Positions 9,325-38,641 of a stretch of 40,757 nt of DNA are shown here, piece by piece. The notes beneath the pieces were generated by a model. It was not told the origin of the DNA, made no database searches, and saw only the letters and a program-made list of their open reading frames with translations. Both the position numbers and the translations under genes were made by a program. Positions within the stretch are counted from its first letter, which is position 1, and every line of letters begins with the position of its first letter. The stretch spans positions 1 to 40,757 of the forward strand of contig JAQUTA010000008.1 of the NCBI GenBank assembly GCA_028709965.1, read 5' to 3'. The stretch comes from Lutispora sp. GTDB taxonomy: Bacteria > Bacillota > Clostridia > Lutisporales > Lutisporaceae.

Positions 9325-10374
9325 TTAGTTCATTAGGGTGTATTCTTTATGTGTCAGTGTAAAAACATCTTTAAAACCTTTGGTCATATATATCTTTTTA
9401 TCTGTGGTTATAAACAGGGCTTCTGTATTATCAAGACCTTCTATAAGCTTCATGCCCTTATCCAGCCCCAGAAGAAATATGGAAGTTGATAGACCATCTC
9501 CATCAATGGATTTATCGGTGATGATAGAAACACCAGCTAGGCCATTATCTCCGGGATATCCGGTTCTGGGTTCTAAAATATGATGATATCTCTTTCCATC
9601 TTGTTCAAAGTATCTTTCGTATATCCCTGAAGTTACAACTGATTTATTATCTATTTGTACAATGCCAAGATAATCACCGCGAGGATTAAAAGGATTCTGA
9701 ACTCCTATCTTCCATGGATTACCGTTTACATTACCACCAACAGCAAGAATGTTGCCTCCCAAGTTGATTATGGCGTGTTTCACACCGTGATTTCTCAGTA
9801 TAGACGCAACTTCATCTGCTGCATATCCTTTGGCTATGGCACCTAAATCTACTTTCATACCGCTCGCTTCAAGCTTTGCAGTATGTCTTTGTTCATTTAG
9901 AGAAAGTTTATTATAGTCTACAAGCTTTAAGGTCTCAGCTAAAACCTTGGGTTCGGGTATTGCTGCATATGGAGTACCGATATTCCATAGTTTGACTAAG
10001 GGACCAATAGTGATGTCAAACTCCCCTTGTGACAATTGAGAATAATATTTACCTTTTTCCAAAACATAAAAGGTATCCTCACTCACCTCTACCTCGTGGG
10101 AACCAGAAGCATCGTTGAGCCTAGTAATTTGGCTTGGGTTCTCGCTGTTTATTGTCATTTTATTTTCAATTTCTTTGATTCGGTCAAAGGCTTCATCAAT
10201 AATTTTTGCATCTTTGTTATTATAAAGTGTTATATCAATCAAAGTGCCTAATATATAATTGCTCTTTGTTAAAGGACCTTGGATTTGTTCTTTTGGACTG
10301 CAACCTACCAAAAAAGACACTATAAAAGAAAATAATAATATTATTTTAATAAATCTTAAGTTGCTAAATGACAT
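9325..10374 (-). CDS. apbE: FAD:protein FMN transferase, lipoprotein (ApbE/FmnB type)
   Basis: Transfers FMN from FAD to threonine residues of exported or membrane redox proteins. The 349-residue protein begins with a lipoprotein signal: a hydrophobic run IILLFSFIVSFLVGC with a lipobox ending at Cys25, so it acts outside the cell. Family motifs include DLGAIAKGYAADEV (FAD/Mg site), NLGGNILAVGG, HHILEPRTGYP, and DGDGLSTSIFLLG in place of the common DALSTA. It is divergent from ndh2 and the eetA/eetB-like genes. This is the arrangement expected if it plays the FmnB role in flavin-based extracellular electron transfer. No obvious flavinylation substrate (PplA-like) is in the window. The start follows GGAGGTT on the minus strand. 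Confidence 0.95.
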   Translation of the reverse strand: MSFSNLRFIKIILLFSFIVSFLVGCSPKEQIQGPLTKSNYILGTLIDITLYNNKDAKIIDEAFDRIKEIENKMTINSENPSQITRLNDASGSHEVEVSEDTFYVLEKGKYYSQLSQGEFDITIGPLVKLWNIGTPYAAIPEPKVLAETLKLVDYNKLSLNEQRHTAKLEASGMKVDLGAIAKGYAADEVASILRNHGVKHAIINLGGNILAVGGNVNGNPWKIGVQNPFNPRGDYLGIVQIDNKSVVTSGIYERYFEQDGKRYHHILEPRTGYPGDNGLAGVSIITDKSIDGDGLSTSIFLLGLDKGMKLIEGLDNTEALFITTDKKIYMTKGFKDVFTLTHKEYTLMN

Positions 10375-10413
10375 ATGCCAACCTCCATAAATAGGATTTA
10401 AGTTAATAATAGA

Positions 10414-10442
10414 ATTTTATCATAATATTTGACAAAGAACAA
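10414..10442 (-). promoter_or_regulatory. Promoter of the apbE-type gene
   Basis: Read on the minus strand: -35 TTGTTC (10442-10437), a 17-nt spacer, then TAAAAT (10419-10414) preceded by the extended -10 TGA. The distance to the start codon is about 40 nt. A second possible pair, TTGTCA with N18 and TATTAT, overlaps it. Confidence 0.5.
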
Positions 10443-10512
10443 ATGAATATTATTGTTTTTTAGATGAATATACTTTGAGTAAAAAAAGATTTTATTTTAT
10501 TGGAAATATACA

Positions 10513-10541
10513 TTGAAATATATTTAAATTAATTATATACT
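10513..10541 (+). promoter_or_regulatory. Sigma-A promoter of the ndh2 transcript
   Basis: TTGAAA (10513-10518), a spacer of exactly 17 nt, then TATACT (10536-10541). Transcription should begin near 10548, giving a leader of about 230 nt before ndh2. It lies about 70 nt from the divergent apbE promoter, so one regulator bound between them could act on both. Confidence 0.75.
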
Positions 10542-10547
10542 ATAGTA

Positions 10548-10780
10548 GCAAGTTAGATTATAGCTTGATGTGTTTGATAAATCTCAAACAGATAGAGGCT
10601 ATAATACGAGAACAGAGGAAGGCTGAAAACCCCCAAGAACATGCATATATTTTGCACAGGAACTAATGCCTATTGTATTGACTGAATATAGTTGATATAA
10701 GAACTTCATACATTATTCAACGTTAATATTTGGGTTTGGCTTGTCTTATCTGTTTATCACTGAACCTTAGGAGGGTTATA
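10548..10780 (+). ncRNA. Long structured leader of ndh2, family unknown
   Basis: Between the promoter and ndh2 lie about 230 nt without a recognisable gene. The 5' end folds into a two-part hairpin. The outer stem is ATTATAGC (10558-10565) with GCTATAAT. The inner stem is TGTTTGA with TCAAACA around a TAAATC loop. A purine-rich internal loop (TTGATG opposite GATAGAG) separates the stems. Downstream are a G/A-rich segment, CCCCC at 10630-10634, and GGGTTT near 10733 that could pair with AAACCC at 10627-10632. The start site is flanked by AACC and GGTT around TTAGGAG. I compared it from memory with lysine, FMN, SAM, glycine, cobalamin, M-box, preQ1 and T-box elements and none fits. A cis-regulatory RNA is possible but unproven. 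Confidence 0.4.
10568..10666 (+). CDS. Possible 32-codon upstream reading frame in the ndh2 leader
   Basis: ATG 10568 opens a 32-codon frame ending TAA at 10664-10666. The product starts MCLINLKQIEAIIREQ and ends AYILHRN. Its composition looks protein-like and it lies wholly inside the leader. Against it: there is no Shine-Dalgarno sequence upstream, and its first codons overlap the 5' hairpin. An open frame of this length occurs fairly often by chance. It is recorded as a candidate leader peptide only. Confidence 0.15.
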   Translation: MCLINLKQIEAIIREQRKAENPQEHAYILHRN

Positions 10781-12574
10781 ATGGAAGCAAAAACTAAAAT
10801 TGTTATTCTCGGCGCTGGATATGCCGGAGTTGAGGCAGCTAAGGTTTTAAACAAAAAATTTAAAAATGACAGCAGCGTAAAAATAACGTTGATTGACCAA
10901 AATCCTTATCACACTTTGCTAACTGAACTTCATGAGATTGCAGGACATAGAACAAATAAAGAAAGTGTTATGATAGACCTGTACCAGGTTTTCAAAGCAA
11001 CAAAAGTTGAATTGATTACAGAAAAAGTTATAAAGGTAGATCAAGAAAAACAGTTGGTAACATCAGAAAGGACAAGCTATGAATATGATTATCTTGTTCT
11101 AGGTGTAGGCAGTGAACCTGCATTTTTTGGTGTTCCAGGAGTTAAGGAAAATGCATTTACTATTTGGTCATTGAAGGATGCACTAAAGATTAGACATCAT
11201 ATCGAAGACGTATTCAGAAGAGCTAGGGCAGAAAAAGATCCCAAAAAGAGGGAAAAGCTTTTGACCATCATTGTTGCAGGATCCGGGTTTACAGGAGTTG
11301 AAGTTGTTGGCGAGCTTATGGAGTGGAAAAAGCTGCTTTGTGCCCAGCATGACATTCCTGAATCAGAGGTTACTCTATACAATGTAGAAGCTATGCCGAA
11401 TATACTTCCTAATTTAAAAGCAAGCCTGCAGACAAAAGCTAAAAACTATATGATAAAAAAGGGAGTCAAAGTTTTAAACGGCGCAGCTATAGTAAAAGCT
11501 ACAGAAGAGGGCATAGTTCTTAAGGATGGCACAGAAATCTCCACAGATACTTTGATTTGGACTTGTGGTGTTCAGGGTAATTCCTTCTGCGTTGAAACAG
11601 GCTTTACTGAAGGCAAGAGGTGCAGAGTTCTTGTAAATGATTATTTGCAGACAGTTGACAAAGAAAATATATATGCTGTTGGTGATAACGCATATTATGA
11701 AATAAACGGAAGACCTATTCCTCAAATAGTTGAGACTGCAATTCAGACCGGTGAATGTGCGGCAAAGAATATAATTGCAGATATTAAAAATAAAGAAAAA
11801 GAAAAATTTCAGCTAAACACTCATGGATTCATGGTTTCAGTCGGCAGTCATTACTGTGTGGCAGAGGTCATGGGAGTTCAGATGTCTGGCTTTATCGCCA
11901 TGATGATGAAGCATTTGGTAAATATGCACTATCTATGGGGCGTAGGTGGATTAAGACTTATCTGGAACTACTTGAGACATGAATTTTTCCATATGGAAGA
12001 TCGCAGATCTTTTGTAGGGGGACACTTATCACAAAGGACTCAATCCTTGTGGCTAATACCTCTTAGAATATATGTAGGTATACTATGGCTTATTGAAGGC
12101 ATTAACAAGGTCAATGACGGATGGCTAGAGCCAGGCAATATAAAAATAGTTCAAGTAGCTGGAAACTCAGGAGCATCTCAGGCAGCAGAAGGCGCAGCCG
12201 GTGCAGCACAAACATGGGTTACACCCATATTGTCAGCACCTCCGGCAGTATACCAATGGTTTATGGATACGGTAGTTACTCCAAATGCAATGTTATTCCA
12301 AACTTCAGTAGTAGTAATGGAAATACTGATTGGTCTTGCATTGATAGCTGGATTATTTACTTTCCTGGCATCAATAGCATCTATGGGATTAGTGGCAAAC
12401 TTCATACTCTCAGCTATGGCAGGCTATGACATCCTATGGTATGTATTTGCTGCTATAGTTTTGATGGGCGGAGCAGGCAGAACCTTTGGATTGGATCACT
12501 ATGTGATACCTTGGATAAAGAAATGGTGGACAGGTACAAAGTTCGCAAGAGAACATCAGTTGTATTTTGATTAG
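10781..12574 (+). CDS. ndh2: Type II NADH dehydrogenase with C-terminal DoxX-like membrane domain (Ndh2)
   Basis: A 597-residue, two-part protein. Residues 1 to about 415 form an NDH-2 flavoprotein: FAD site VILGAGYAGVEAAKVL near the N-terminus, NAD site IVAGSGFTGVEVVGEL (about 162-177), and AVGDNAYY (about 299-306) at the second FAD contact. From about residue 423 a DoxX-like membrane module follows, with four hydrophobic segments. A small Ala/Gly-rich stretch (about 466-480) lies between its first and second segments. NDH-2 oxidises NADH and reduces a quinone. The extra membrane part distinguishes it from respiratory NDH-2 and recalls the Ndh2 of Listeria extracellular electron transfer. 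ATG 10781 has TAGGAGGG upstream; an in-frame start at 10730 has no ribosome site. It heads the group with the eetA/eetB/dmkB-like genes and is separated from them by a terminator and a second promoter. Confidence 0.9.
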   Translation: MEAKTKIVILGAGYAGVEAAKVLNKKFKNDSSVKITLIDQNPYHTLLTELHEIAGHRTNKESVMIDLYQVFKATKVELITEKVIKVDQEKQLVTSERTSYEYDYLVLGVGSEPAFFGVPGVKENAFTIWSLKDALKIRHHIEDVFRRARAEKDPKKREKLLTIIVAGSGFTGVEVVGELMEWKKLLCAQHDIPESEVTLYNVEAMPNILPNLKASLQTKAKNYMIKKGVKVLNGAAIVKATEEGIVLKDGTEISTDTLIWTCGVQGNSFCVETGFTEGKRCRVLVNDYLQTVDKENIYAVGDNAYYEINGRPIPQIVETAIQTGECAAKNIIADIKNKEKEKFQLNTHGFMVSVGSHYCVAEVMGVQMSGFIAMMMKHLVNMHYLWGVGGLRLIWNYLRHEFFHMEDRRSFVGGHLSQRTQSLWLIPLRIYVGILWLIEGINKVNDGWLEPGNIKIVQVAGNSGASQAAEGAAGAAQTWVTPILSAPPAVYQWFMDTVVTPNAMLFQTSVVVMEILIGLALIAGLFTFLASIASMGLVANFILSAMAGYDILWYVFAAIVLMGGAGRTFGLDHYVIPWIKKWWTGTKFAREHQLYFD

Positions 12575-12584
12575 CATGAATTTG

Positions 12585-12619
12585 ATCCCGTTACCTGTAG
12601 ATGGGTAACGGGATTTTTG
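12585..12619 (+). terminator. Intrinsic terminator after ndh2
   Basis: ATCCCGTTACC (12585-12595) pairs perfectly with GGTAACGGGAT (12604-12614), followed by a run of T. The loop is 8 nt. It makes ndh2 a separate transcript from the eetA-like gene. Confidence 0.9.
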
Positions 12620-12628
12620 CAGATTACA

Positions 12629-12657
12629 TTGAAATATAGTGAAAATTTGTATAAAAT
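12629..12657 (+). promoter_or_regulatory. Sigma-A promoter for the eetA-eetB-dmkB-like operon
   Basis: TTGAAA (12629-12634), a 17-nt spacer, then TAAAAT (12652-12657). It lies just after the ndh2 terminator. Its -35 is identical to that of the ndh2 promoter, which would suit coordinated expression. Confidence 0.7.
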
Positions 12658-12701
12658 AATGTAGAATTTTAATAAAGAGAAACAATAGGTCGGTGATGTT
12701 T

Positions 12702-13085
12702 GTGAAAATGAAAAAAGGAGATATACTGCTGCTTTTGATAATATTTATAGCAGGTATGTCATATTTTGGGCTGAAGTTCTTATATAAGGATACCGGAGAT
12801 AAAACAATAGTGATTTCTGTCAATGGCAAAGAATATGATAGGATTGCTATGAGCAACCTAAACGGTGAAAAGCTAATTCACATTGATTTAGAAGAGGGAA
12901 GACATATAGACATAAAGATAGACAGCCAAGGCGCTCATGTATCTGATGTCATATGCCCTGATAAAATATGTGTGAAAACCGGTGTTATAGATAAGGTTGG
13001 TCAAAGCATTGTATGCCTGCCAAACAAAGTCCAGGTATTTATAGAAGGCAGTGCAGAAACCGATGTTGATTATGTTTCTCAATAG
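12702..13085 (+). CDS. NusG_II-domain membrane-anchored protein, EetA-like
   Basis: A protein of about 128 residues. An N-terminal membrane anchor (ILLLLIIFIAGMSYFGLKFL) precedes a NusG domain II-like beta-rich domain (about residues 35-120) containing GAHVSDVICPDKICVKTG and IVCLPNKVQVFI. The domain is expected outside the membrane. Paired with a Gx-transporter protein, this family corresponds to EetA of the flavin-based electron transfer locus, where EetA/EetB are thought to pass electrons from quinol outward. GTG 12702 is chosen because GGTGAT (12692-12697) lies 4 nt upstream, the same layout as the GTG start at 22679. ATG 12696 and ATG 12708 are alternatives. It starts an operon with the next two genes. 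Confidence 0.8.
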   Translation: MKMKKGDILLLLIIFIAGMSYFGLKFLYKDTGDKTIVISVNGKEYDRIAMSNLNGEKLIHIDLEEGRHIDIKIDSQGAHVSDVICPDKICVKTGVIDKVGQSIVCLPNKVQVFIEGSAETDVDYVSQ

Positions 13086-13096
13086 GAAGTGTTATT

Positions 13097-13612
13097 TTGA
13101 CCAAAACTAGAAAAATGGTATTATTAAGCATTTTAATATCTCAGGCATTAGTCCTTCATGTAATTGAGAGGGCTATCCCTGTGCCTATCCCCGTTCCTGG
13201 TGTTAAACTTGGCCTTGCCAATATAATAAGCCTTATTACTATCATGTTGTTTGGCTATAAAGAGGCTGTTTTGGTAGTGATCCTAAGAACACTATTGGGC
13301 TCTTTTTTTGGTGGGGGTTTATCAAGCTTTCTCTATAGCTTGGCAGGAGGGATTTTGAGCAGCACTATAATGGCATATATGTATTTGAAACATAAGGATA
13401 TATTCAGCATATCCACCATAAGCACTGTTGGAGCAGTTTTTCACAATATTGGCCAAATTGGTGTTGCCAGCCTTGTAATATCAAATATTCATCTCTTTTA
13501 TTATCTTCCGGTGCTATTGATATCCGGTGTAATAACAGGAGTTTTGATAGGTTTTACTGTAGATTTTACCGTAGAACCGGTAAAAAGAATCCTAAAGATA
13601 GGAGGGGCATAG
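13097..13612 (+). CDS. Gx transporter family membrane protein, EetB-like
   Basis: A 171-residue polytopic membrane protein with about five hydrophobic segments, often annotated as heptaprenyl diphosphate synthase component I. Family marks are VIERAIPVPIPVPGVKLGLANI at the N-terminus, the glycine-rich LLGSFFGGGLSSFLYSLAGG, and AVFHNIGQIGVASLV. It has no prenyltransferase motifs, so the common enzyme name is misleading. Together with the preceding NusG_II gene it matches the EetA/EetB pair. The start codon is TTG 13097 with AGGAAGTG upstream, and it begins 11 nt after the previous stop. dmkB follows 3 nt later. Confidence 0.85.
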   Translation: MTKTRKMVLLSILISQALVLHVIERAIPVPIPVPGVKLGLANIISLITIMLFGYKEAVLVVILRTLLGSFFGGGLSSFLYSLAGGILSSTIMAYMYLKHKDIFSISTISTVGAVFHNIGQIGVASLVISNIHLFYYLPVLLISGVITGVLIGFTVDFTVEPVKRILKIGGA

Positions 13613-13615
13613 ATC

Positions 13616-14566
13616 ATGGAGCATAAGGATTTTTTAGCCATGGAACTCAATAAGGTTGAAGAGCATCTTTTAAAAACTTTGAAAACGAGAAGTAAGATGG
13701 TGGAGGCATCCTTAAGTGATTTTGTAAAAAGTGGCGGGAAGAGACTTAGACCTGCTCTTACTATAATAGGTTCTACCTTTGGAGATTATAAAAGCGAAGT
13801 AGCAATTCCCCTTGCTTCTGCTATAGAAATAATTCACATGGCCACCTTGATTCACGATGATATAGTAGATGATGCGGAAATGAGGAGAGGTACCAAAACA
13901 ATGCAATCTACTTTAGGAAAGAATACTGCAGTGTACTGTGGAGATTTTCTTTTTACCAGAGCTTTTATGCTTATAGCAGATATGGCCGAGGTAGAGATGA
14001 TGAAGGATTTATCCAAAGCCATTGCTTTTATATGTGATAGTGAGATAGATCAAAATGAGCAAAAATATGATCAAACAGTTGATGTGAGGAAATACCTAAA
14101 GAGAATAGGCGGCAAAACAGCAGCCCTTTTCTCACTTAGTATTGCTGTAGGTGCCCATAAAGCCGGCTGTGATAGAAAAATCACATCAAAGCTATCTAAT
14201 GTTTGTAAGAATATTGGAATGGCATTTCAAATAATAGATGATATTTTGGATTTCACTGGGGACGAAAAAACCGTAGGCAAACCCTTGCTCAGTGATGCTA
14301 AGCAAGGAATATTTACATTGCCTATAATATATTCCTTGCAAGGCTCATATAAAGAAGAAACAATTAAAGCCATTGAGAGGATAGAGAGGGACAACGGGGA
14401 AAGCCTTTTGAATTGTGCAGTAAAAAGCGGCGGCTTGGATAGAACAAAGCGCCTAGGAATAAAGTTTATTAGCAAAGCAACGAAGCTGAAAGATTCCTTG
14501 CCTAATGGTTATGGTAAGGATGCAATTACAGCCATAATAGAAAAACAGTTAGAGAGAAAATTTTAA
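13616..14566 (+). CDS. Polyprenyl diphosphate synthase (heptaprenyl synthase component II / DmkB-like)
   Basis: A trans-prenyltransferase that elongates farnesyl-type diphosphates to the quinone side chain. At 316 residues it is a normal length. It shows GGKRLRP (about residues 40-46), the first aspartate-rich motif HDDIVDDAEMRRG (about 80-92), the GGKTAALF stretch, and the second motif FQIIDDILDF (about 203-212). It ends the NusG_II/Gx operon. In the Listeria locus the equivalent gene, dmkB, supplies the side chain for the demethylmenaquinone used in extracellular electron transfer. The partner prenyltransferase (dmkA/UbiA type) is not in this window. The stop codon lies within the terminator stem. 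Confidence 0.92.
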   Translation: MEHKDFLAMELNKVEEHLLKTLKTRSKMVEASLSDFVKSGGKRLRPALTIIGSTFGDYKSEVAIPLASAIEIIHMATLIHDDIVDDAEMRRGTKTMQSTLGKNTAVYCGDFLFTRAFMLIADMAEVEMMKDLSKAIAFICDSEIDQNEQKYDQTVDVRKYLKRIGGKTAALFSLSIAVGAHKAGCDRKITSKLSNVCKNIGMAFQIIDDILDFTGDEKTVGKPLLSDAKQGIFTLPIIYSLQGSYKEETIKAIERIERDNGESLLNCAVKSGGLDRTKRLGIKFISKATKLKDSLPNGYGKDAITAIIEKQLERKF

Positions 14567-19033: not shown

Positions 19034-20311
19034 ATGTTAAGGAGAGATGCTGTTTTATTGAGTATACTAAAAAAAGAAATTGTCCCTGCCACTGGTTGCA
19101 CTGAACCGGTAGCAGTTGCTTATTCAACGGCTATAGCTCGTCAGAGGTTAGACGGAGTGATAGAAAAGTTAGAAATATTAGTGGATGGTGGACTTTATAA
19201 AAATGGCATGAGAGTTGGCATACCAGGTATTAAAGAAAGAGGGCTAGAGATGGCGGGGGCATTGGGTTTGTTTGCCGGCTCACCGGAGCGAGATTTGCAA
19301 GTTATTGAAGACATTAGCGTTGAAGCTCTTAATAAAGCCAAGGAATTGGTAGAACAAGGCAAAGTAAAAGTTTCTGTTAAAGAAAATTGTAACAATCTTT
19401 ATATAGAGACCATACTGTATACTTCAAAGGGAAAGATTTGCGTCGTGACAAAAGATAGGCATTTAAATGCGGCTGTATCAGATAATGAAGAGAACCAGAT
19501 GAAATGCGAGTCAAAACAAGCAGAGTCTGATAAGTCATCAGAAGCTATTCAAAACTATAGCCTAGAAGATTTTTTGGATTTCAGTCAAACAATACCTATA
19601 GATGAATTATCACTTCTTGAGCAGGGAGTTAATATGAACTTAGGCTTGGCAAAAGAAGGTCTAGCTATGGAAGCTGGTATTGCCAAAAAGTTTGAGAAAT
19701 TAGTAAAAAGTGGACTTATGCATGAAGACCTTATGTATAGAGCTCAGCTTCTTTGTGCTGCAGCTTCAGAGGCACGTATGGCCGGCAGCAAACTGGCAGC
19801 TATGAGCAGTGCAGGCAGCGGTAACCATGGAATAACAGTTTTTCTTACAAATTATGCAGTAGCAGAAAAAATGGGTTTATCAAGAGAGTCTCTACTAAGA
19901 GCTTTAGCATTGAGCAATCTAGTAACCTTCTATATAAAATCATACACAGGAACCCTATCAGCCATGTGTGGCTGCGGAGTGGCTGCCGGTATAGGAGCCA
20001 GTGTGGGAGTAGTGTATCTGTTAGGAGGCAGTAGCAAAGAAATGTTAGGAGCTATTATAAATATGATCGGAAGCATTGCAGGTATTATTTGCGATGGAGG
20101 CAAGGAAGGCTGCTCATATAAACTGGCATTGTCTGCAGGTTGGGCTGTGCAGTCGGCACTCTTATCTATGGCTGGTGCAGTCGCAAACAATAAAGATGGA
20201 ATTTTATCTTCGGATTTTAAAGAGGTTATTAGAAATATGGGGTATGTATGCAACCCTGGAATGGTAGAAACAAATAATGCAATAATAAAGGTTATGACTA
20301 ATGAAATTTAA
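19034..20311 (+). CDS. L-cysteine desulfidase / UPF0597 (serine dehydratase alpha-like) protein
   Basis: A 425-residue protein of the UPF0597 family (E. coli CyuA/YhaM, archaeal L-cysteine desulfidase), which carries an oxygen-sensitive Fe-S cluster and releases sulfide, ammonia and pyruvate from cysteine. Conserved cysteines are visible: C22 in VPATGCTEP, C312 and C314 in MCGCGVAAG, C353 in CDGGKEGC and C360 at its end. An insertion rich in Glu/Lys/Ser (about residues 152-177) separates the two halves. It has its own -24/-12 promoter and is the evident target of the upstream activator, whose sensor region is cysteine-rich. GGGAGGAGGG precedes ATG 19034. Serine or another beta-substituted amino acid as substrate cannot be excluded. 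Confidence 0.88.
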   Translation: MLRRDAVLLSILKKEIVPATGCTEPVAVAYSTAIARQRLDGVIEKLEILVDGGLYKNGMRVGIPGIKERGLEMAGALGLFAGSPERDLQVIEDISVEALNKAKELVEQGKVKVSVKENCNNLYIETILYTSKGKICVVTKDRHLNAAVSDNEENQMKCESKQAESDKSSEAIQNYSLEDFLDFSQTIPIDELSLLEQGVNMNLGLAKEGLAMEAGIAKKFEKLVKSGLMHEDLMYRAQLLCAAASEARMAGSKLAAMSSAGSGNHGITVFLTNYAVAEKMGLSRESLLRALALSNLVTFYIKSYTGTLSAMCGCGVAAGIGASVGVVYLLGGSSKEMLGAIINMIGSIAGIICDGGKEGCSYKLALSAGWAVQSALLSMAGAVANNKDGILSSDFKEVIRNMGYVCNPGMVETNNAIIKVMTNEI

Positions 20312-24071: not shown

Positions 24072-24917
24072 ATGAGAGAAATAAATGTTGACATAATTAC
24101 AAATGTTGTAGAAAAATTATGCATAGATTCTAACTATTATCTTCCTCATGACGTAAAGGAAGCATTACAAGATGCAGTAGCAAAAGAAGAATCTCCTTTA
24201 GGAAAGGATATATTGCTAGATATACTAAAAAATCAGGAAATTGCACGATCTAAACATGTTCCAATCTGCCAGGATACAGGATTAGCAGTAATATTTTTAG
24301 AATTAGGTCAAGAGGTAAGGCTTGTAGGAGGAGATCTCAATGAAGCTATTAATGAAGGGGTAAGACGGGGATATAAAAATGGATATTTACGAAAATCCTG
24401 TGTTGAGGTCCCATTTTCATCAAGAAAAAACACAGGGGATAATACTCCGGCAATAATTCATACTACAATTGTAAAAGGGGATAAGGTTAAAATCATAATG
24501 GCTCCCAAGGGTGGCGGAAGCGAAAACATGAGCGCTTTGGCTATGCTCAAGCCTTCCGATGGAGTAGAAGGTATAAAAAAGTTTGTGCGAGACACCGTAG
24601 ATAAAGCGGGATCAAATCCATGCCCCCCAATTATTGTAGGAATAGGCATAGGCGGGACAATAGAAAAGACAACTTTAATAGCTAAGAGAGCACTTTTGCG
24701 CACAATAGGAGAACATAATCCAAATCCTGAGGTGTCCAAGCTTGAAAAAGAGCTGCTTGAGGAAATTAACAATTTAGGAATTGGACCTCAAGGCTTTGGA
24801 GGAAGGATGACTGCTTTGGCAGTGCATGTTGAAACCTTTCCCGCGCACATAGCTAGTATGCCCGTAGCTGTGAATATACAATGCCATGCCGCAAGACATA
24901 GGGAGGCAGTAATATGA
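24072..24917 (+). CDS. Fumarate hydratase class I, alpha subunit
   Basis: The N-terminal catalytic half of the two-subunit, oxygen-sensitive [4Fe-4S] fumarase/tartrate dehydratase family. The 281 residues match the split alpha subunit. Family marks include VPICQDTGLAVIFLE (about residues 63-77, with a cluster cysteine), NTGDNTPAIIH, APKGGGSENMSAL, and GIGIGGTIEKTTLIAKRALLR. CHAARH lies near the C-terminus. It overlaps the beta subunit gene by 4 nt (ATGA). Malic enzyme follows, so fumarate-malate-pyruvate interconversion is the likely use. L-tartrate as substrate cannot be excluded by sequence. ATG 24072 follows AAGGGAG. Confidence 0.95.
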   Translation: MREINVDIITNVVEKLCIDSNYYLPHDVKEALQDAVAKEESPLGKDILLDILKNQEIARSKHVPICQDTGLAVIFLELGQEVRLVGGDLNEAINEGVRRGYKNGYLRKSCVEVPFSSRKNTGDNTPAIIHTTIVKGDKVKIIMAPKGGGSENMSALAMLKPSDGVEGIKKFVRDTVDKAGSNPCPPIIVGIGIGGTIEKTTLIAKRALLRTIGEHNPNPEVSKLEKELLEEINNLGIGPQGFGGRMTALAVHVETFPAHIASMPVAVNIQCHAARHREAVI

Positions 24918-25462
24918 TTAAGTCTATTAATACACCTTTGACAGATGATATAGTTGAAGATTTAAACGTTGGCGACAGAGTCCTGCTAAACGGCATTATA
25001 TATACGGGTCGCGATGCTGCTCATAAGAGATTGGTTGAAATTATAAATAAGGGTGAAGAACTTCCCGTGGATCTGAAAGGTCAAATCATATATTACGTAG
25101 GTCCTTGCCCGGCCAAACCCGGATGGATTATAGGCTCTGCTGGACCGACCACAAGCGGAAGAATGGATGTTTATACAAATACTTTATTAGATAAGGGCTT
25201 AAAGGGTATGATAGGAAAAGGTCAGCGCAGGGAAGATGTGGTAGACTCCATGATGAAGAATAAAGCTGTATATTTTGCGGCGATTGGTGGCGCCGGAGCA
25301 CTTTTGGCGGAAGCAGTAAAAGAAGCCCAAATCATAGCCTTTCCAGAATTAGGACCGGAAGCTATATATAAATTAAAAGTTGAGAATTTCCCTGTTACTG
25401 TTGCAATAGATACTAAAGGAAGAGATTTATACAAAACAGGCAGAGATAAATATAAAAGATAA
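24914..25462 (+). CDS. Fumarate hydratase class I, beta subunit
   Basis: The C-terminal half of the split class I fumarase. At 182 residues it is a normal length. It has GDRVLLNGIIYTGRDAAHKR near residue 20, YYVGPCPAKPGWIIGSAGPTTSGRMD (about 57-82) and AIGGAGALLAE in the middle. It forms a heterodimer (or dimer of heterodimers) with the alpha subunit, which carries the iron-sulfur cluster. Its start overlaps the alpha stop, so translation is coupled. Malic enzyme begins 15 nt after the stop. Confidence 0.95.
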   Translation: MIKSINTPLTDDIVEDLNVGDRVLLNGIIYTGRDAAHKRLVEIINKGEELPVDLKGQIIYYVGPCPAKPGWIIGSAGPTTSGRMDVYTNTLLDKGLKGMIGKGQRREDVVDSMMKNKAVYFAAIGGAGALLAEAVKEAQIIAFPELGPEAIYKLKVENFPVTVAIDTKGRDLYKTGRDKYKR

Positions 25463-25477
25463 GGTAGGTAAAAATAT

Positions 25478-26674
25478 ATGTCCATAAGAGAAGAAGCATT
25501 AAAACTCCATAGAGATAATAAAGGCAAACTGGAAATGAAAAGCAAGGTTTCCATAAAGGATAAGGAAGCCTTGAGCTTGGCTTATACCCCGGGAGTGGCC
25601 GAACCTTGCAAAGAAATACATAAGAATATAGATACAGTATATGAATATACCTCAAAAGGTAATATGGTGGCAATCGTGTCCGACGGCACTGCAGTTCTTG
25701 GCTTGGGAGATATAGGTCCCCATGCAGCTCTTCCTGTAATGGAGGGAAAGGCAGCATTATTCAAAGAGTTTGGAGGAGTGGATGCATTTCCTATATGTCT
25801 TAACACTACTAATGTTGATGAGATTGTTAATACAGTGCTGCAAATAGAACCTGCTTTTGGCGGGATAAACTTGGAAGATATCTCAGCTCCAAGATGCTTT
25901 GAGATCGAAAGAAAGCTGAAAGAAAAGATGTCAATTCCTGTATTTCATGACGATCAGCATGGGACTGCTATCGTTGTATTAGCAGCTCTTATAAATGCTT
26001 TGAGAATAAGTAAGAAGGAAATGAAAGATATAGTGGTCGTAATAAATGGCACTGGGGCTGCCGGCATTGCTATTGCTAAAATAATATTAAATGTTGGAGT
26101 GAGCGACTTGCTCCTCTGTGACAGAAGCGGTATTGTATATAAAGGAAGACAAAATGGAATGAACTGGGCAAAAGAAGAGATTGCAGAAGTCACCAATAAA
26201 GATATAAAATCAGGAAAGCTTGCAGATGCTCTTGTTGATGCAGACGTATTCATTGGAGTCTCATCAGCCAATATTGTTACTGAAGAAATGGTGAGATTCA
26301 TGAATAAGGATGCCATAATATTTGCCATGGCGAATCCGATGCCCGAAATCGACCCTGAATTAGCTAAAAAGGCAGGAGCTAGAATAGTTGGAACAGGAAG
26401 ATCTGATTATCCCAATCAGGTCAATAACGTTTTAGTATTTCCCGGAATATTTAAAGGAGCATTTGACGTAAGAGCAAATTGCATCAACGAAGAAATGAAG
26501 ATAGCAGCGGCCAATGCACTGGCAGGGCTAATAGAAGATGATGAAATTAGTGAAGACTATATAATTCCCAAACCTTTCGACAAAAGAGTTATAACTGCAG
26601 TAGCAAAAGCAGTAGCGCAGGCTGCAGATGATACGGGGGTCGCAAGGTTGAATAGAAGCAAAGTGGAGGAATAG
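25478..26674 (+). CDS. NAD-dependent malic enzyme
   Basis: Oxidative decarboxylation of malate to pyruvate and CO2 with reduction of NAD(P). The 398 residues fit the short bacterial single-domain enzyme without a phosphotransacetylase tail. Motifs are SLAYTPGVAEPC (about residues 28-39), GLGDIGPHAALPVMEGKA with the catalytic lysine, VFHDDQHGTAIV (about 154-165, metal ligands), and the nucleotide site VVINGTGAAGIAIAKI. It directly follows the fumarase genes, and together these convert fumarate to pyruvate. AAGGTAGG precedes ATG 25478. aroD starts 2 nt after the stop. Confidence 0.95.
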   Translation: MSIREEALKLHRDNKGKLEMKSKVSIKDKEALSLAYTPGVAEPCKEIHKNIDTVYEYTSKGNMVAIVSDGTAVLGLGDIGPHAALPVMEGKAALFKEFGGVDAFPICLNTTNVDEIVNTVLQIEPAFGGINLEDISAPRCFEIERKLKEKMSIPVFHDDQHGTAIVVLAALINALRISKKEMKDIVVVINGTGAAGIAIAKIILNVGVSDLLLCDRSGIVYKGRQNGMNWAKEEIAEVTNKDIKSGKLADALVDADVFIGVSSANIVTEEMVRFMNKDAIIFAMANPMPEIDPELAKKAGARIVGTGRSDYPNQVNNVLVFPGIFKGAFDVRANCINEEMKIAAANALAGLIEDDEISEDYIIPKPFDKRVITAVAKAVAQAADDTGVARLNRSKVEE

Positions 26675-31195: not shown

Positions 31196-32590
31196 ATGCA
31201 TGATACAAGGATTACCGTAGAAAATTTAAAAGAAGTCCAAAGCATGTTGGGGGCAGTATTTAATGCTACCCAAGATGCCATATCTGTAGTGGACAAAGAT
31301 GGATTGGGCATAATGATTAATCCGGCTTACACCAAGATTACCGGTCTTTCGGAAAAGGATGTAATCGGAAAGTATGCAACAGTAGATATAGCAGAAGGTG
31401 ATAGTGTTCATTTGCAGGTTCTTGCCACAAAAAGCCCTGTAAAAGGTGCTTTGCTCAAGGTTGGACCCAATCGGAAGGAAGTATTGGTAAACGCAGCACC
31501 AATAATTGTAGATGGAGAGCTTATCGGAAGCGTAGGAGTGCTCCACGACATAACGGAAATGAATAGACTATCCGAAGAACTAAGACAAGCTAAGCAAATA
31601 ATAAGGAAGCTGGAAGCAAAATATACTTTTGACGACATAGAAGGAAAAGATGCTGAACTGCTAAACGCCATAGACAAGGCCAAAAAAGCGGCAGATACGC
31701 CGGCGACTGTTCTTTTGATTGGCGAGAGTGGAACAGGCAAAGAAATTTTTGCCCATGCAATTCATAATTCCAGTGAGAGAAAATATAAGCAGTTTGTTCG
31801 TGTGAATTGTGCGGCTATTCCTCAAACTCTGTTAGAATCTGAACTCTTCGGTTATGAAGAAGGGGCCTTTACAGGAGCCAAAAAAGGAGGCAAGAAAGGA
31901 CTTTTTGATGAAGCTAACGGGGGCACTATATTTTTGGATGAGATCGGTGAAATAAATGTGGAAACCCAGGCTAAGCTCCTAAGAGTCCTTCAGGAAAAGG
32001 AAATAATGAAGGTAGGCGGAATAAAGCCTGTAAATATTGATGTCCGAGTCATAGCTGCTTCAAATATTGATATTGAGAATGCTATCAAGCAGGGTAAGTT
32101 TAGAAAAGATCTTTACTATAGAATAAACATGTTCCCTATCAGGATACCTACACTAAAAGAAAGAAAGGGAGATATCGGTCATCTTGCAAGATTCTTTTTA
32201 AAAAAATTCAATCAGGAATATGGCAGAAATATAGAAGGAATAAATGAAGATGCATTACAAAAACTTATAGAATATAAGTGGCCCGGTAACGTGAGAGAAT
32301 TAGAGAATATAATAGGCAGAGCTATAATCAATATGAAGATGACAGAGAAAACTATACAAAAGAGGCATTTACCAAAGTTTGATCTTGGTGACGAAAGAAT
32401 CAATATACCCTCGGAAACAGAGTTTTCTGAGATGGAAACTATGACCTTAGAGCAGTTGACTGATAGGATTGAGAGTGAATATATTGTCCATGTGTTGAAG
32501 CTTTGCGACAACAATAAAACTCAAGCTGCAAAGATTTTGAAAATATCTCTAAGGAATCTATACTATAAGCTGGAAAAGCATGGTATATAA
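31196..32590 (+). CDS. PAS-domain sigma-54-dependent activator of the branched-chain acid operon
   Basis: A 464-residue activator. The PAS domain covers about residues 15-120 (VFNATQDAISVVDKDG, then MINPAYTKITGLSEKDVIG). A short coiled linker (LSEELRQAKQIIRKLEAK) leads to the AAA+ domain (about 145-375) with GESGTGKE, the sigma-54 contact loop GAFTGA, GTIFLDEIGEI and RKDLYYRINMFP. The Fis-type helix-turn-helix is at the C-terminus (NNKTQAAKILKISLRNLYYKL). It lies directly before three tandem palindromes and a -24/-12 promoter that drive the buk-ptb-VOR operon. This is the position and architecture of BkdR in Bacillus. The inducer is unknown; a branched-chain 2-oxoacid or acyl-CoA would be logical. 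ATG 31196 follows AAAGGT. Confidence 0.93.
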   Translation: MHDTRITVENLKEVQSMLGAVFNATQDAISVVDKDGLGIMINPAYTKITGLSEKDVIGKYATVDIAEGDSVHLQVLATKSPVKGALLKVGPNRKEVLVNAAPIIVDGELIGSVGVLHDITEMNRLSEELRQAKQIIRKLEAKYTFDDIEGKDAELLNAIDKAKKAADTPATVLLIGESGTGKEIFAHAIHNSSERKYKQFVRVNCAAIPQTLLESELFGYEEGAFTGAKKGGKKGLFDEANGGTIFLDEIGEINVETQAKLLRVLQEKEIMKVGGIKPVNIDVRVIAASNIDIENAIKQGKFRKDLYYRINMFPIRIPTLKERKGDIGHLARFFLKKFNQEYGRNIEGINEDALQKLIEYKWPGNVRELENIIGRAIINMKMTEKTIQKRHLPKFDLGDERINIPSETEFSEMETMTLEQLTDRIESEYIVHVLKLCDNNKTQAAKILKISLRNLYYKLEKHGI

Positions 32591-32595
32591 CATCG

Positions 32596-32650
32596 TGCAA
32601 TTTCTTGCATAATGTTATATATTGCAAAAAGTTGCATGCAAAATATTGCG
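32596..32650. promoter_or_regulatory. Three activator sites TGCAA-N4-TTGCA
   Basis: Site 1: TGCAA-TTTC-TTGCA (32596-32609). Site 2: TGCAA-AAAG-TTGCA (32623-32636). Site 3: TGCAA-AATA-TTGCG (32637-32650), one mismatch. Sites 2 and 3 abut exactly. The centres lie about 135, 108 and 94 bp before the predicted start of the sigma-54 promoter, the usual range for activator binding. Confidence 0.8.
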
Positions 32651-32670
32651 CATATAAAGATTGTGAAAAA

Positions 32671-32697
32671 ACTGACACTGATATGTCGGTTTTTTTT
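32671..32697 (+). terminator. Terminator of the PAS/sigma-54 activator gene
   Basis: ACTGACA (32671-32677), loop CTGATA, TGTCGGT (32684-32690) with one G-U pair, then a T run. It separates the activator from its target operon. Confidence 0.85.
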
Positions 32698-32712
32698 ATG
32701 AATAAAAAAGCT

Positions 32713-32727
32713 GGCATACATATTGCA
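32713..32727 (+). promoter_or_regulatory. Sigma-54 (-24/-12) promoter of the buk-ptb-VOR operon
   Basis: TGGCATACATATTGCA has GG at 32713-32714 and GC at 32725-32726 with the required 12-nt spacing, a near-perfect match to the consensus. The leader to the first start codon is about 54 nt and holds TACCAAATC twice (32749-32757 and 32761-32769). Confidence 0.9.
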
Positions 32728-32791
32728 TATATTATAAAGAAAGAATATTACCAAATCCGCTACCAAATCTATTTATAAGGGGTGTTCAAGC

Positions 32792-33874
32792 TTGACGAGA
32801 GAATACATATTAGTCATAAATCCCGGCTCTACTTCAACAAAAGTCGCATTATTCAAAGAAAGTCAATCAGCAAAGCAAAAAAATCTCTCTCATCCTAATG
32901 AAGAGCTGGAAAAATTTGAGAGAATTGCTGACCAATATGATTATAGAAAAAACATTATACTTGATTGGCTGAAAGAAGAGGGGATCGAGCTTTCAGATCT
33001 ATCCGCTGTTGTAGGAAGGGGAGGACTTCTAAAATCAATGCCAAGTGGTACATATATGGTTACCGATGCGATGATAGAGGACTTGAAGATAGGAATTCAA
33101 GGTGAACACGCTTCTAATCTTGGAGGTATTATAGCAAAAAGCATAGGTGATTCTCAGGGAATACCCTCCTTAATTGTGGATCCTGTTGCTGTAGACGAGT
33201 TCGATGAAGTGGCGAGAATATCAGGCATGCCTGAACTGCCTAGGAAATCCTTAGTCCACGCTTTAAATATAAAAGCCGTTGCTAGAAGAGCGGCTAATGA
33301 TATGGGAAAGACTATCGATGATATAAATATTGTTATAGCACATTTGGGCGGGGGCATATCTATCGCACCTATGAATAAGGGAAAAATAGTTGATGTTAAT
33401 AATGGTAACGAATGGGGACCATTTTCTCCAGAAAGAGCAGGAGGACTTCCTGTGGGAGATATAATTAAAATGTCCTACTCCCAAAAATATACCCAAGCAG
33501 AAATGAAAAAGAAGATGGTAGGCAAAGCTGGATTTGTAGGCTATTTAGGAACCAATGATGGCAGAGAAGTAGAGAAAATGATTGCCAAAGGTGATAAAAA
33601 TGCAGATTTAATACATGATGCCATGGCTTATCAAATCTCAAAAGAAATAGGCGCCATGGCCACAGTTCTCAAAGGTGATATTCAAGCCATAGTTATTACC
33701 GGAGGTCTCGCTCATTCAAAACTTTTATGTGAGAGAATAGAAAAGAGAGTAAAATTTATTGCACCATTTATGGTATACCCGGGAGAAGATGAAATGCTTG
33801 CCTTGGCTGAAGGGGCATTGCGGATTATCATCGGCGAAGAAAAACCAAAAATTTACGAAGAAGAGGTGAGGTAA
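32792..33874 (+). CDS. buk: Butyrate kinase (first copy)
   Basis: An acyl-phosphate:ADP phosphotransferase of the acetate/butyrate kinase (ASKHA) family, making ATP from butyryl-, isobutyryl- or isovaleryl-phosphate. The 360 residues are the usual length. Motifs are [14 protein letters not shown] (residues 7-20), GRGGLLKSMPSGTY, HASNLGG, the IAHLGGGISI phosphate loop, and YPGEDEMLALAEG at the C-terminus. It starts at TTG 32792 behind AAGGGGTG. It is the first gene of the sigma-54 operon; ptb follows after 5 nt. A second, clearly paralogous kinase lies after ptb. Confidence 0.95.
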   Translation: MTREYILVINPGSTSTKVALFKESQSAKQKNLSHPNEELEKFERIADQYDYRKNIILDWLKEEGIELSDLSAVVGRGGLLKSMPSGTYMVTDAMIEDLKIGIQGEHASNLGGIIAKSIGDSQGIPSLIVDPVAVDEFDEVARISGMPELPRKSLVHALNIKAVARRAANDMGKTIDDINIVIAHLGGGISIAPMNKGKIVDVNNGNEWGPFSPERAGGLPVGDIIKMSYSQKYTQAEMKKKMVGKAGFVGYLGTNDGREVEKMIAKGDKNADLIHDAMAYQISKEIGAMATVLKGDIQAIVITGGLAHSKLLCERIEKRVKFIAPFMVYPGEDEMLALAEGALRIIIGEEKPKIYEEEVR

Positions 33875-33879
33875 AGCTT

Positions 33880-34782
33880 ATGATAAAAGCTTTTGATGAA
33901 ATTGTTAAATGTGCTAAGGCAAAAGGACCTAAAATTCTTGCTGTCGCAGTAGCTCAAGACGTAGAAGTATTGACAGCGCTCAATACCGCCAAAGATTTGG
34001 GCATAGCCGAGGCTATTTTGGTTGGAGATAAGGATGAAATACTAAAAGCTGCAGGCGAGTGTGGAGTAGAACTGGATAAGTTTACTATTATTGATGAAAA
34101 AGATAAAGCTGAAGCATGTAAAAAGGCTGTAAAGCTTGTATCCGAAGGGAAAGCTCACATTGTGATGAAAGGTCTTGTAGATACAGCCATAATATTAAAG
34201 GCAATATTAGCAGAAGAGGCAGGACTAAGAACCGGAAATGTGCTTTCACATGTGGCTGTATTTGAGGTAAATGGCTTTGACAGACTCTTTATAGTTACTG
34301 ATGCAGCAATGAACATAGCTCCAAATCTGGAGCAGAAAAAGCAGATAATTGAAAATGCCGTAAAAGTAGCCCATGCATTAGAAAACCCTGAGCCTAAAGT
34401 AGCAATATTGGCTGCAGTAGAGAAAGTGAATCCTAAAATGCAAGCAACTGTAGACGCAGATGCTTTGGTCAATATGAACAAAAATGGAGAGCTAAAAGGC
34501 TGCGTCCTGGGAGGACCATTTGCACTTGACAATGCAGTATCTGTAGAGGCGTCAAAGCACAAGGGTATCAACCACCCTGTCGCCGGTTACGCAGATATAC
34601 TAATGGTTCCTCAGATAGAGGCTGGAAATATGTTATATAAGTCTATGGTATATTTTGCAAAGGCTCAAAATGCAGGCATCATAGTAGGAGCAAAGATTCC
34701 AATAGTGCTGACATCAAGGGCAGACAGCGATATTGCAAAGCTGAATTCTATAGCTATAGGCGTTTTGATGGCTGATATTTAG
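33880..34782 (+). CDS. ptb: Phosphate butyryltransferase
   Basis: Converts butyryl- or branched acyl-CoA plus phosphate to acyl-phosphate and CoA. At 300 residues it is the usual length of the phosphate acetyl/butyryltransferase fold. Visible family stretches are AVAVAQDVEVLTAL, IVMKGLVDTAIILKAIL (about 89-105), LSHVAVFEV, VTDAAMNIAPNLEQK and the C-terminal GAKIPIVLTSRADS. It sits between two kinase genes with tight spacing (5 nt before, 32 nt after) and is preceded by GAGGTGAGG. Confidence 0.96.
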   Translation: MIKAFDEIVKCAKAKGPKILAVAVAQDVEVLTALNTAKDLGIAEAILVGDKDEILKAAGECGVELDKFTIIDEKDKAEACKKAVKLVSEGKAHIVMKGLVDTAIILKAILAEEAGLRTGNVLSHVAVFEVNGFDRLFIVTDAAMNIAPNLEQKKQIIENAVKVAHALENPEPKVAILAAVEKVNPKMQATVDADALVNMNKNGELKGCVLGGPFALDNAVSVEASKHKGINHPVAGYADILMVPQIEAGNMLYKSMVYFAKAQNAGIIVGAKIPIVLTSRADSDIAKLNSIAIGVLMADI

Positions 34783-34814
34783 TGTATTCTACCTAGAGAG
34801 AGGAGGAATTTTTG

Positions 34815-35888
34815 ATGCAGGAAATTTATAGGCTTTTGATTATTAACCCAGGCTCCACATCTACGAAGATAGCCATATATGATAATGAAAAGCCTGTATT
34901 CGAAGAAACCTTGAGACATTCAAATGATGAACTGGCACCTTATGCTGCAATTTATGACCAATATGAATTCAGAAAAAATGTCATACTTGACACCCTAAAT
35001 GCTAAAGGCATCAACATTACAAAGCTAAGCGCTGTTATTGGCAGAGGCGGTCTCTTAAAGCCTATGGAAGGCGGCACATATAGAGTAAATGAAACCATGC
35101 TTCAGGATTTGAAAGTAGGAGCTATGGGGCAGCATGCATCCAACTTGGGAGGCATTATTGCCCACGAAATAGCATCCCAACTCCATATCCCCGCTTTCAT
35201 AGTAGACCCTGTGGTAGTAGATGAGCTGGAGGATGTGGCAAGAATTTCAGGTATGCCGGAGATCAAAAGGCTCAGTATAATACATGCCTTAAATCAAAAG
35301 GCAGTAGCAAGAAGAGCTTCCAAAGAGTTAGGCAAAGCATATAATGAGGCTAATTTGATAGTAGCCCACATGGGTGGGGGTATCTCCGTAGGAGCTCACA
35401 AAAAAGGAAGAATAATAGAGGTCAACAATGCCTTAGATGGAGAAGGACCCATGTCGCCGGAAAGAACAGGGAGCCTGCCTGTAGGAAGTCTCATGAAACT
35501 ATGCTACTCAGGTAAATATACACAAGACGAAATGAAGAAGAAAGTTGTAGGCAAGGGCGGCTTGGTAGCTCATCTAGGCACAAATGACGGCAGGGAAGTA
35601 GTAAAGAGGATAGAAGCAGGAGATAAACATGCAGAACTAATATACTACGCCATGGCCTATCAGGTAGCTAAGGAAATTGGCAGCTGCGCCGCAGCCCTAG
35701 AAGGTAAAGTAGATGCCATATGCCTAACAGGAGGATTGGCCTATGATAAGCTTCTCACAGGTTGGATAAAGGAAAGAGTACAATTCATATCTAAAGTCCT
35801 TATTTATCCCGGAGAAGATGAAATGATAGCTCTGGCTGAAGGCGGTCTAAGAATTTTAAGAAACGAAGAAAAAGCAAGGGAATATTAA
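34815..35888 (+). CDS. buk: Butyrate kinase (second copy)
   Basis: A paralogue of the kinase at 32792, with 357 residues and all the same motifs: [39 protein letters not shown] and [13 protein letters not shown]. Differences between the copies spread over the whole length, so this is not a recent tandem duplication. The two may differ in chain length or branching preference. ATG 34815 is chosen over the adjacent TTG 34812 because AGGAGG (34801-34806) is at ideal spacing. The P-loop gene follows after 16 nt. Confidence 0.94.
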
Positions 35889-35904
35889 CAATAAGGATGA
35901 TTTT

Positions 35905-36582
35905 ATGGAAAATGATAAGAGGATCAGAATAATAACAGGACATTATGGCAGTGGCAAAACAGAGTTTGCTGTAAACTATACGTTAACCCTTGCAGAAAAA
36001 GGATACAATACAGCTATAGTGGATTTAGATATTGTTAATCCATACTTCAGGTCAAGAGAAATGGAACCTATGTTTGAAGAAAAAGGTGTAAGAGTAATAT
36101 CCTCTTCAATAAAAGGATTGGCAGGAGACCTGCCTGCATTATCGCCGGAGATATATACTATTCTTGAGGATAAAAGCTATGAGGCAGTTATAGATGTAGG
36201 AGGAGATAAGGCAGGAGCTACAGCTTTAGGGCGGTTCTATAACAGAATAGACAAAGATGAATGTGATATGTTTTTTGTATTAAACGCTAATAGACATCTC
36301 ACAGGTGACAAGCAAAATGCCATAAGATATTTAAAATCAATAGAACAAGGCTCAAGGCAAAAGGTTACTGCATTGATAAATAATACTCATCTATGCGGCG
36401 AAACCAAAATTGAGGACATAATGAAAGGTCAGGATCTCTGTTTGCAAGTATCTCAAGAGCTTGGCCTACCAATAAAATATACGGTAGTCCATAAAGGACT
36501 CGCAGACTATTTGCCTAATAATATCTGCGGGGAAATATTTCCAATAGATATTTTTATGAAAAAACCCTGGGAAATGGAATAA
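35905..36582 (+). CDS. P-loop nucleotide-binding protein of the VOR operon
   Basis: A 225-residue soluble protein of the CobQ/CobB/MinD/ParA-like group. The P-loop is GHYGSGKT (residues 12-19); IVDLDIVNPYFRSRE (about 38-52) has the form of a switch region, and VIDVGGDKAGATALGRF holds the Walker B-like aspartate. No DNA-binding or membrane-targeting part is seen. It lies between the acyl kinase genes and the ferredoxin subunit, in close operon spacing. Its function is not known to me; assembly or activation of the 2-oxoacid oxidoreductase, by analogy with CooC-type accessory ATPases, is a hypothesis from position only. Confidence 0.85.
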   Translation: MENDKRIRIITGHYGSGKTEFAVNYTLTLAEKGYNTAIVDLDIVNPYFRSREMEPMFEEKGVRVISSSIKGLAGDLPALSPEIYTILEDKSYEAVIDVGGDKAGATALGRFYNRIDKDECDMFFVLNANRHLTGDKQNAIRYLKSIEQGSRQKVTALINNTHLCGETKIEDIMKGQDLCLQVSQELGLPIKYTVVHKGLADYLPNNICGEIFPIDIFMKKPWEME

Positions 36583-36595
36583 AGGAGGTTTAAAA

Positions 36596-36808
36596 ATGGC
36601 AGGAAAGGTTACATTTGACGAAAACAGGTGCAAGGGCTGCGAACTCTGCACAACAGTATGTCCAGTGAAGATAGTGATTATGGACAAGGACAAAATTAAT
36701 ATCAAGGGATACCATCCAGCAACAGTAAAAGAGATGGACAAATGCATAGCTTGCGGTTCATGCGCAAGAATGTGCCCCGATGTTGTTATCACAGTTGAAA
36801 AATTGTAA
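36596..36808 (+). CDS. 2-Oxoacid:ferredoxin oxidoreductase delta subunit (2[4Fe-4S] ferredoxin)
   Basis: A 70-residue ferredoxin-like subunit with two complete CxxCxxCxxxCP cluster motifs: C12, C15, C18, C22 and C50, C53, C56, C60. The layout is that of the small electron-transfer subunit of four-subunit 2-oxoacid oxidoreductases. It passes electrons from the TPP-bound intermediate to free ferredoxin. AAAGGAGG lies 7 nt before ATG 36596. The alpha subunit follows after 19 nt. Confidence 0.95.
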   Translation: MAGKVTFDENRCKGCELCTTVCPVKIVIMDKDKINIKGYHPATVKEMDKCIACGSCARMCPDVVITVEKL

Positions 36809-36827
36809 TTTGTAAGGAGGGATATTA

Positions 36828-37895: not shown

Positions 37896-38641
37896 TGGCA
37901 ATTGTATTCCAAAAAACAAAAGGACTAACTGAAAAGCAAACACACTATTGTCCCGGCTGCACCCATGGCATAATCCACAGGCTTGTAGCAGAGTCCTTGG
38001 AAGAATTAGGGCTTTTGGACAAAGCAATAGGCGTAGCTCCGGTTGGATGCTCAGTATTTGCTTATGATTATTTCTCCTGCGATATGCAAGAAGCTTCCCA
38101 CGGAAGAGCTCCCGCCTGTGCAACAGGAATAAAGAGAGTTCATCCGGATTCAGCAGTATTCACATATCAGGGTGATGGTGACTTAGCTTCCATAGGTGCT
38201 GCAGAAATAGTACATGCTGCTATGAGAGGCGAGAAGTTTACAACCATATTCGTAAACAATGCCATATATGGTATGACAGGCGGCCAGATGGCGCCAACAA
38301 CTTTGATTGGACAAAAAGCTACAACTGCTCCTTTGGGAAGAGATGAAAATCATGCTGGCATGCCCTTAAGAGTAAGTGAAATGCTTGCAACAATACCAAA
38401 GGCAGTATTTGTTGAGAGAGTATCAGTACATGATGTACCTAACATAATGAAAGCCAAAAAGGCAATAAAGAAAGCTTTTGAAATACAGATGAAGGGTTTG
38501 GGTTTTGGTATAGTAGAAGTTCTTTCAACCTGTTCTACTAACTGGGGCAAAACTCCTGTTGAAGCACTGAAATGGCTGAAAGAAAATATGATTCCTTACT
38601 ATCCAATACAAAATTTCAGAAATCCTGAGGAGGTGAAATAA
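37895..38641 (+). CDS. 2-Oxoacid:ferredoxin oxidoreductase beta subunit (TPP-binding)
   Basis: A 248-residue thiamine diphosphate subunit. The N-terminal HYCPGCTHGIIHRL holds the conserved CPGC. The TPP/Mg motif is YQGDGDLASIG (about residues 90-100) with the downstream NNAIYGMTGGQMAPTT. It pairs with the alpha subunit to form the active site. Its stop codon directly abuts the gamma gene start, with GAGGAGGTGA as the ribosome site for the latter, so the subunits are translated in close coordination. Confidence 0.93.
   Translation: MAIVFQKTKGLTEKQTHYCPGCTHGIIHRLVAESLEELGLLDKAIGVAPVGCSVFAYDYFSCDMQEASHGRAPACATGIKRVHPDSAVFTYQGDGDLASIGAAEIVHAAMRGEKFTTIFVNNAIYGMTGGQMAPTTLIGQKATTAPLGRDENHAGMPLRVSEMLATIPKAVFVERVSVHDVPNIMKAKKAIKKAFEIQMKGLGFGIVEVLSTCSTNWGKTPVEALKWLKENMIPYYPIQNFRNPEEVK

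Follow-up and report, generated by a model that had tools for sequence, protein, structure and literature searches.

A block of five genes (apbE, ndh2, eetA, eetB, and dmkB) in a 40,757-nucleotide stretch of Lutispora sp. DNA, the window of this analysis, is in our judgment likely to be the local part of a split flavin-based extracellular electron transfer (FLEET) system, and it most likely sends electrons from NADH outward by way of a shared flavin supply. Four features of the block lead us to this reading: the Listeria gene order, full-length homology of Ndh2, an ApbE closest to FmnB, and a RibU-like EetB. It is joined by evidence from outside the window, where a PplA homologue is found throughout the genus, a DmkA homologue scores above family cut-offs, and ndh2 adjoins pplA in sister genera. 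The electron-export system itself is already known, and this is another example of it; what the locus adds is proof of the split, a probable dependence on quinones, a shared gene cassette, and a structured leader RNA, and the range of Listeria-type electron export grows by a family of spore-forming anaerobes. The draft bin to which the window belongs, as contig 96, comprises 2.41 Mb in 171 contigs and is 88% complete and 2.6% contaminated; because it is an incomplete draft, all absences reported here are provisional. A preliminary description of the window had placed the five genes at the positions we confirm (Table 1) and interpreted them as a FLEET core; its observation was right, and its main reading probably so.

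The FLEET locus of Listeria was reportedly described by Light et al. in 2018. We compared the window with reference loci of other Listeria species, Vagococcus, and Enterococcus (L142-L147), fetched with the Listeria FmnB sequence from a PDB match. The Listeria locus has dmkB-eetB-eetA-ndh2 on one strand, with pplA-fmnB-dmkA divergent on the other and, after dmkA, a gene of 266 amino acids in the fmnA position. The window has ndh2-eetA-eetB-dmkB in the same order and on one strand, with the FmnB-like apbE divergent from ndh2, as had been noticed before. This layout, with spoVA beyond apbE, is conserved in three other members of the genus, and since it is both kept in the genus and found in the same order in Listeria, it is not a chance arrangement. 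Together with the family matches, identities of 33-46% to the Listeria cossartiae proteins (ApbE 44%, Ndh2 46%, EetA 33%, EetB 37%, and DmkB 39%, the last to the protein at the corresponding locus position) bear out the assignment of the five homologue types FmnB, Ndh2, EetA, EetB, and DmkB. The resemblance extends to PplA (32%) and DmkA (45%), which are encoded elsewhere in this genome. The Lutispora system differs from that of Listeria in that pplA and dmkA lie on other contigs, fmnA was not identified, no synthesis of 1,4-dihydroxy-2-naphthoate (DHNA) was found, a structured leader precedes ndh2, and the proteins are 32-46% identical.

The individual proteins have the characters expected of FLEET components. 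ApbE is an FmnB-type lipoprotein (lipobox LVGC), its best solved relative is Listeria FmnB (7esa, 324 bits, the next structure scoring 203 bits), and it has the stretch SIDGDGLST in common with FmnB. Of the 597 residues of Ndh2, those from 7 to 585 align with the Listeria enzyme, the C-terminal membrane domain included, which together with a DoxD match upholds the earlier view that the enzyme is fused to a membrane domain; in its structure model the membrane part has low confidence, and we relied on the first 400 residues. The DoxD name might be taken to indicate thiosulfate chemistry, which we rejected, the same domain being carried by Listeria Ndh2. For EetB, the predicted model (pLDDT 90) has the six-helix ECF-S fold and matches best in the PDB to RibU, the riboflavin subunit (TM score 0.76), and then to other ECF S-subunits. 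This fold agrees with the role of Listeria EetB, which binds FAD and is needed for FAD export (PMC9973259), so the family name is misleading, as the preliminary description remarked of this Gx protein; a polytopic membrane protein with an ECF-S fold is not a small prenyl synthase subunit. EetA and EetB are both present, and the same pair is known also without electron export (PMC9973259).

The preliminary description correctly stated that fmnA, pplA, and dmkA are absent from the window and supposed a locus either split or reduced. The bin does encode PplA and DmkA, on contigs other than this one, and both recur across the genus; judged from gene positions, the locus is therefore split and not reduced. 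PplA (contig 125) is a lipoprotein with two FMN_bind-type repeats, present in all six genus genomes with GAT or GAS at both predicted flavinylation sites. DmkA (contig 128) scores above two NCBIfam cut-offs for 1,4-dihydroxy-2-naphthoate polyprenyltransferase and occurs in five of the six genus members, with a fragment in the sixth; its contig is not a binning stray, since dmkA adjoins a YchF gene both in this bin and in another genus member (G001). In G001, a near-complete genome, the two genes likewise lie on contigs other than that of the block. Clustering of FLEET genes is usual and is not needed for function (PMC10608574), and 'Ca. Contubernalis alkaliaceticus' likewise has its FLEET homologues dispersed over the genome, although it is reported to be without DmkA and to have an FmnA-EcfA set, whereas the Lutispora bin encodes DmkA and yielded no FmnA (PMC10608574). 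In sister genera, the ndh2 orthologue adjoins pplA in four genomes (G006, G010, G017, and, with a shorter PplA, G009), which ties the two genes together. Sister genera also have a second Ndh2 paralogue, 51-56% identical, that adjoins a large gene (L106-L110); this gene encodes a PreP-type M16 peptidase in both cases checked, and in three genomes a protein with a single FMN_bind domain precedes the paralogue.

Several observations weigh against assigning the block to electron export. FmnA, the second EcfT-type subunit of FLEET, was not identified: the sole EcfT found in the 88% complete bin, which was not directly compared with FmnA, sits in an ECF operon of contig 144. In other genera of the family, seven genomes have apbE and eetA-eetB together without ndh2 beside them, and one genome (G020) keeps apbE-eetA-eetB with no match to Ndh2, DmkA, or PplA. 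Searches for quinone genes, with known genomes as positive controls, found in this genome neither MenB above cut-off nor MqnA. No MenD above cut-off turned up in any of 22 genomes of the family, of which seven have a completeness of at least 90% and a contamination of at most 5%; MqnA appears in one of the 22 as a marginal fragment. Finally, DmkA had no match in G009, a complete genome that encodes two Ndh2.

The quinone results can be accommodated if the headgroup comes from outside. An absence of any menaquinone or demethylmenaquinone pathway and of ApbE substrates had been named beforehand as grounds for abandoning the FLEET interpretation, and the outcome is divided: DmkA and DmkB are both present, but the searches turned up no way of making the naphthoquinone headgroup. 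This combination makes the use of exogenous DHNA likely, and the headgroup is probably scavenged, by analogy with Lactiplantibacillus; lactic acid bacteria that cannot make quinones use exogenous DHNA (PMC10746273). The system of Lactiplantibacillus plantarum (PMC8837199; PMC9888254; PMC10746273) resembles this one in combining Ndh2, PplA, and EetA/EetB with a quinone from outside instead of its own DHNA synthesis, and electron export there requires ndh2 and pplA (PMC9888254; PMC8837199). It differs in that ours belongs to a spore-former with Rnf, has its genes dispersed, and has a quinone dependence that we infer. DmkA is dispensable in L. plantarum (PMC9888254), and it may be so in this family too, since G009 has two Ndh2 without a DmkA match. 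If quinone synthesis is truly lacking, these anaerobes would need cross-fed naphthoquinones for their use of outside acceptors.

The genetics of L. plantarum and Listeria suggest how the parts would work together. Ndh2 would oxidize cytosolic NADH and pass the electrons to a membrane naphthoquinone, which DmkA would assemble from scavenged DHNA and the prenyl chain made by DmkB, unless a free scavenged naphthoquinone is used. EetA and the two-site lipoprotein PplA would then carry electrons to flavins or other outside acceptors. EetB would export FAD within an ECF machine, and ApbE would attach FMN from the exported FAD to PplA and also to RnfG, RnfD, and three FMN-binding proteins of contig 144, which from their sequences are the likely targets of the sole ApbE found in the bin. 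Candidate final acceptors are ferric iron, humics, an electrode, or a soluble compound.

A soluble organic acceptor is a serious possibility, given the reductase encoded on contig 144. Three FMN_bind proteins lie together there (L038:356-5097): a LysM-FMN_bind-FAD_binding_2 reductase, a NapH-like FeS protein with a C-terminal FMN_bind domain, and an FMN_bind protein with an Oxidored_molyb domain. Besides its FMN_bind domain, the first of these combines a signal sequence with a LysM domain for wall binding and an FAD domain of the flavocytochrome c type (417 bits, above the NCBIfam cut-off). In an alternative that has most steps in common with our preferred explanation and differs from it in the end point, electrons from Ndh2 and quinone would go mainly to this extracytosolic flavinylated enzyme, which would reduce a soluble fumarate-like compound, with metals and electrodes as side acceptors. 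FMN_bind fumarate-reductase-like enzymes are common and some are respiratory (PMC8238504), and the window has genes for a two-subunit fumarase and a malic enzyme. We nevertheless regard this version as somewhat unlikely: the flavinylation motif of the reductase is AGCT instead of AGAT, contig 144 has no positional link to ndh2, and its own NapH-like FMN_bind protein could be the donor. Contig 144 also encodes (L038:5109-10484, 19099-19611) a lipoprotein and another small secreted protein with Oxidored_molyb domains, and between them a secreted repeat protein of 1507 amino acids that appears by eye to be a string of the same module; transport genes of the iron/ECF type and a MobB gene lie nearby.

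A more distant alternative, which we consider unlikely, is that apbE-eetA-eetB serves the flavinylation of RnfG, RnfD, and other FMN-binding proteins, with ndh2 as a mere neighbor and no electron-export locus at all. RnfA, D, E, and G are encoded on contig 133 with flavinylation motifs (AGAT in RnfG, SAAT in RnfD), a single ApbE was found in the bin, and eetB is linked to Rnf in 572 Clostridia genomes (PMC9973259). The Rnf-linked ApbE-EetA-EetB cassettes of Clostridia (PMC9973259; locus L174) are the same three genes acting as a flavin-export and flavinylation unit, although here apbE and eetA are separated by ndh2, and the Rnf genes lie on a different contig. The seven genomes with the cassette and no ndh2 beside it, and G020, favor this alternative too. 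Against it, the membrane domain of Ndh2 is of the electron-export type and is not needed for Rnf, and neither are PplA, present in every genus member, or the adjacency of ndh2 and pplA in sister genera. 

The trees do not discriminate between ndh2 having moved into the cassette in this genus and having been lost from it in others. Nor do they serve as a test of FLEET membership, which we rejected because EetB and ApbE both follow the host family: in both trees, the window protein groups with its own family and apart from the electron-export group of Listeria and Lactobacillales. For EetB, this placement is what vertical inheritance would give, and it speaks neither for nor against a function in electron export. 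We conclude that the apbE-eetA-eetB cassette is a shared flavin supply whose presence alone does not prove electron export, which calls for care in genome scans with eetA or eetB as markers. That the genome is strictly fermentative, as previously proposed, is too strong a statement, because Rnf and several FMN-binding redox proteins are present. It is very improbable that Ndh2 with its DoxD-like part is instead an NADH oxidase route that removes oxygen or peroxide: the DoxD name comes from a subunit of thiosulfate:quinone oxidoreductase and a desulfoferrodoxin gene adjoins dmkA in G001, but Listeria Ndh2 has the same kind of C-terminal part, and the window showed no terminal oxidase, the rest of the genome not having been searched for one.

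The most novel part of the locus is the leader before ndh2. The start of ndh2 is most likely ATG 10781, giving 597 residues, rather than TTG 10730; this ATG lies five bases 3' of AGGAGGG, a site common to all five genus members examined. Between the promoter-like site and the ribosome-binding site, the leader has a hairpin (TGTTTGA-N6-TCAAACA) and a domain closed by 17-21 expected long-range pairs, which in the window ends 15 bases 5' of the ribosome-binding site. It is predicted to fold more stably than dinucleotide shuffles in all five genus members read (z = -3.9, -2.2, -2.1, -3.5, and -4.5). Covariation among these five sequences is weak, with one compensated pair in the alignment and a further A-U/G-C exchange spotted by eye after correction of the register. 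Among the loci compared, a sequence profile of the leader matches only 5' of ndh2 in this genus, and no relatives were seen outside it. Rfam gave no matches on the window or, under relaxed settings, on the gap between apbE and ndh2; matches to the Rex operator pattern were rarer than chance, with none in this gap. From its sequence the leader is a concrete candidate for a regulatory element. More tentatively, and with some doubt on our part, it could represent a new class of cis-regulatory RNA (a riboswitch or an attenuator) that would govern how NADH electrons enter extracellular transfer in a genus with an outlet dependent on scavenged quinone; what it senses might be a quinone, a flavin, or the redox state. 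In one genome (G003, L044) a GC-rich, repeat-like insert of ~120 nucleotides lies between the leader and the ndh2 ribosome-binding site.

Table 1. Positions in the window of the genes of the block and of the sequence elements before ndh2.
Feature	Positions	Strand	Basis
apbE, fmnB-like FAD:protein FMN transferase, lipoprotein	9325..10374	-	PF02424, 313.8 bits
Promoter-like site before ndh2, TTGAAA-N17-TATACT	10513..10541	+	Consensus match only; conserved in five genus members
Structured ndh2 leader, ~200 nucleotides	10558..10754	+	Predicted hairpin ~10571-10590; long-range helix 10612-10623 with 10743-10753
Ribosome-binding site of ndh2, AGGAGGG	10769..10775	+	Conserved in five genus species
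ndh2, type II NADH dehydrogenase with C-terminal DoxD-like membrane domain, 597 amino acids	10781..12574	+	PF07992; identity to Listeria Ndh2; tree
DoxD-like membrane part of ndh2	12254..12526	+	PF04173, 26 bits (cut-off 22.7)
eetA, membrane-anchored NusG_II protein	12693..13085	+	PF07009, 91.4 bits; N-terminal hydrophobic segment
eetB, ECF-S-type flavin carrier subunit	13097..13612	+	PF07456 ('heptaprenyl diphosphate synthase component I'), 168.1 bits
dmkB, polyprenyl diphosphate synthase	13616..14566	+	PF00348, 220.3 bits

Two further groups of metabolic genes lie in the window downstream of the block. The fumarase, of class I, is encoded with the malic enzyme after it at 24072-26674. At 31196-39178 are genes for a sigma-54 activator, two members of the acetate/butyrate kinase family, a phosphate acetyl/butyryl transferase, and a 2-oxoacid:ferredoxin oxidoreductase, which look like a set for the fermentation of branched-chain 2-oxoacids.

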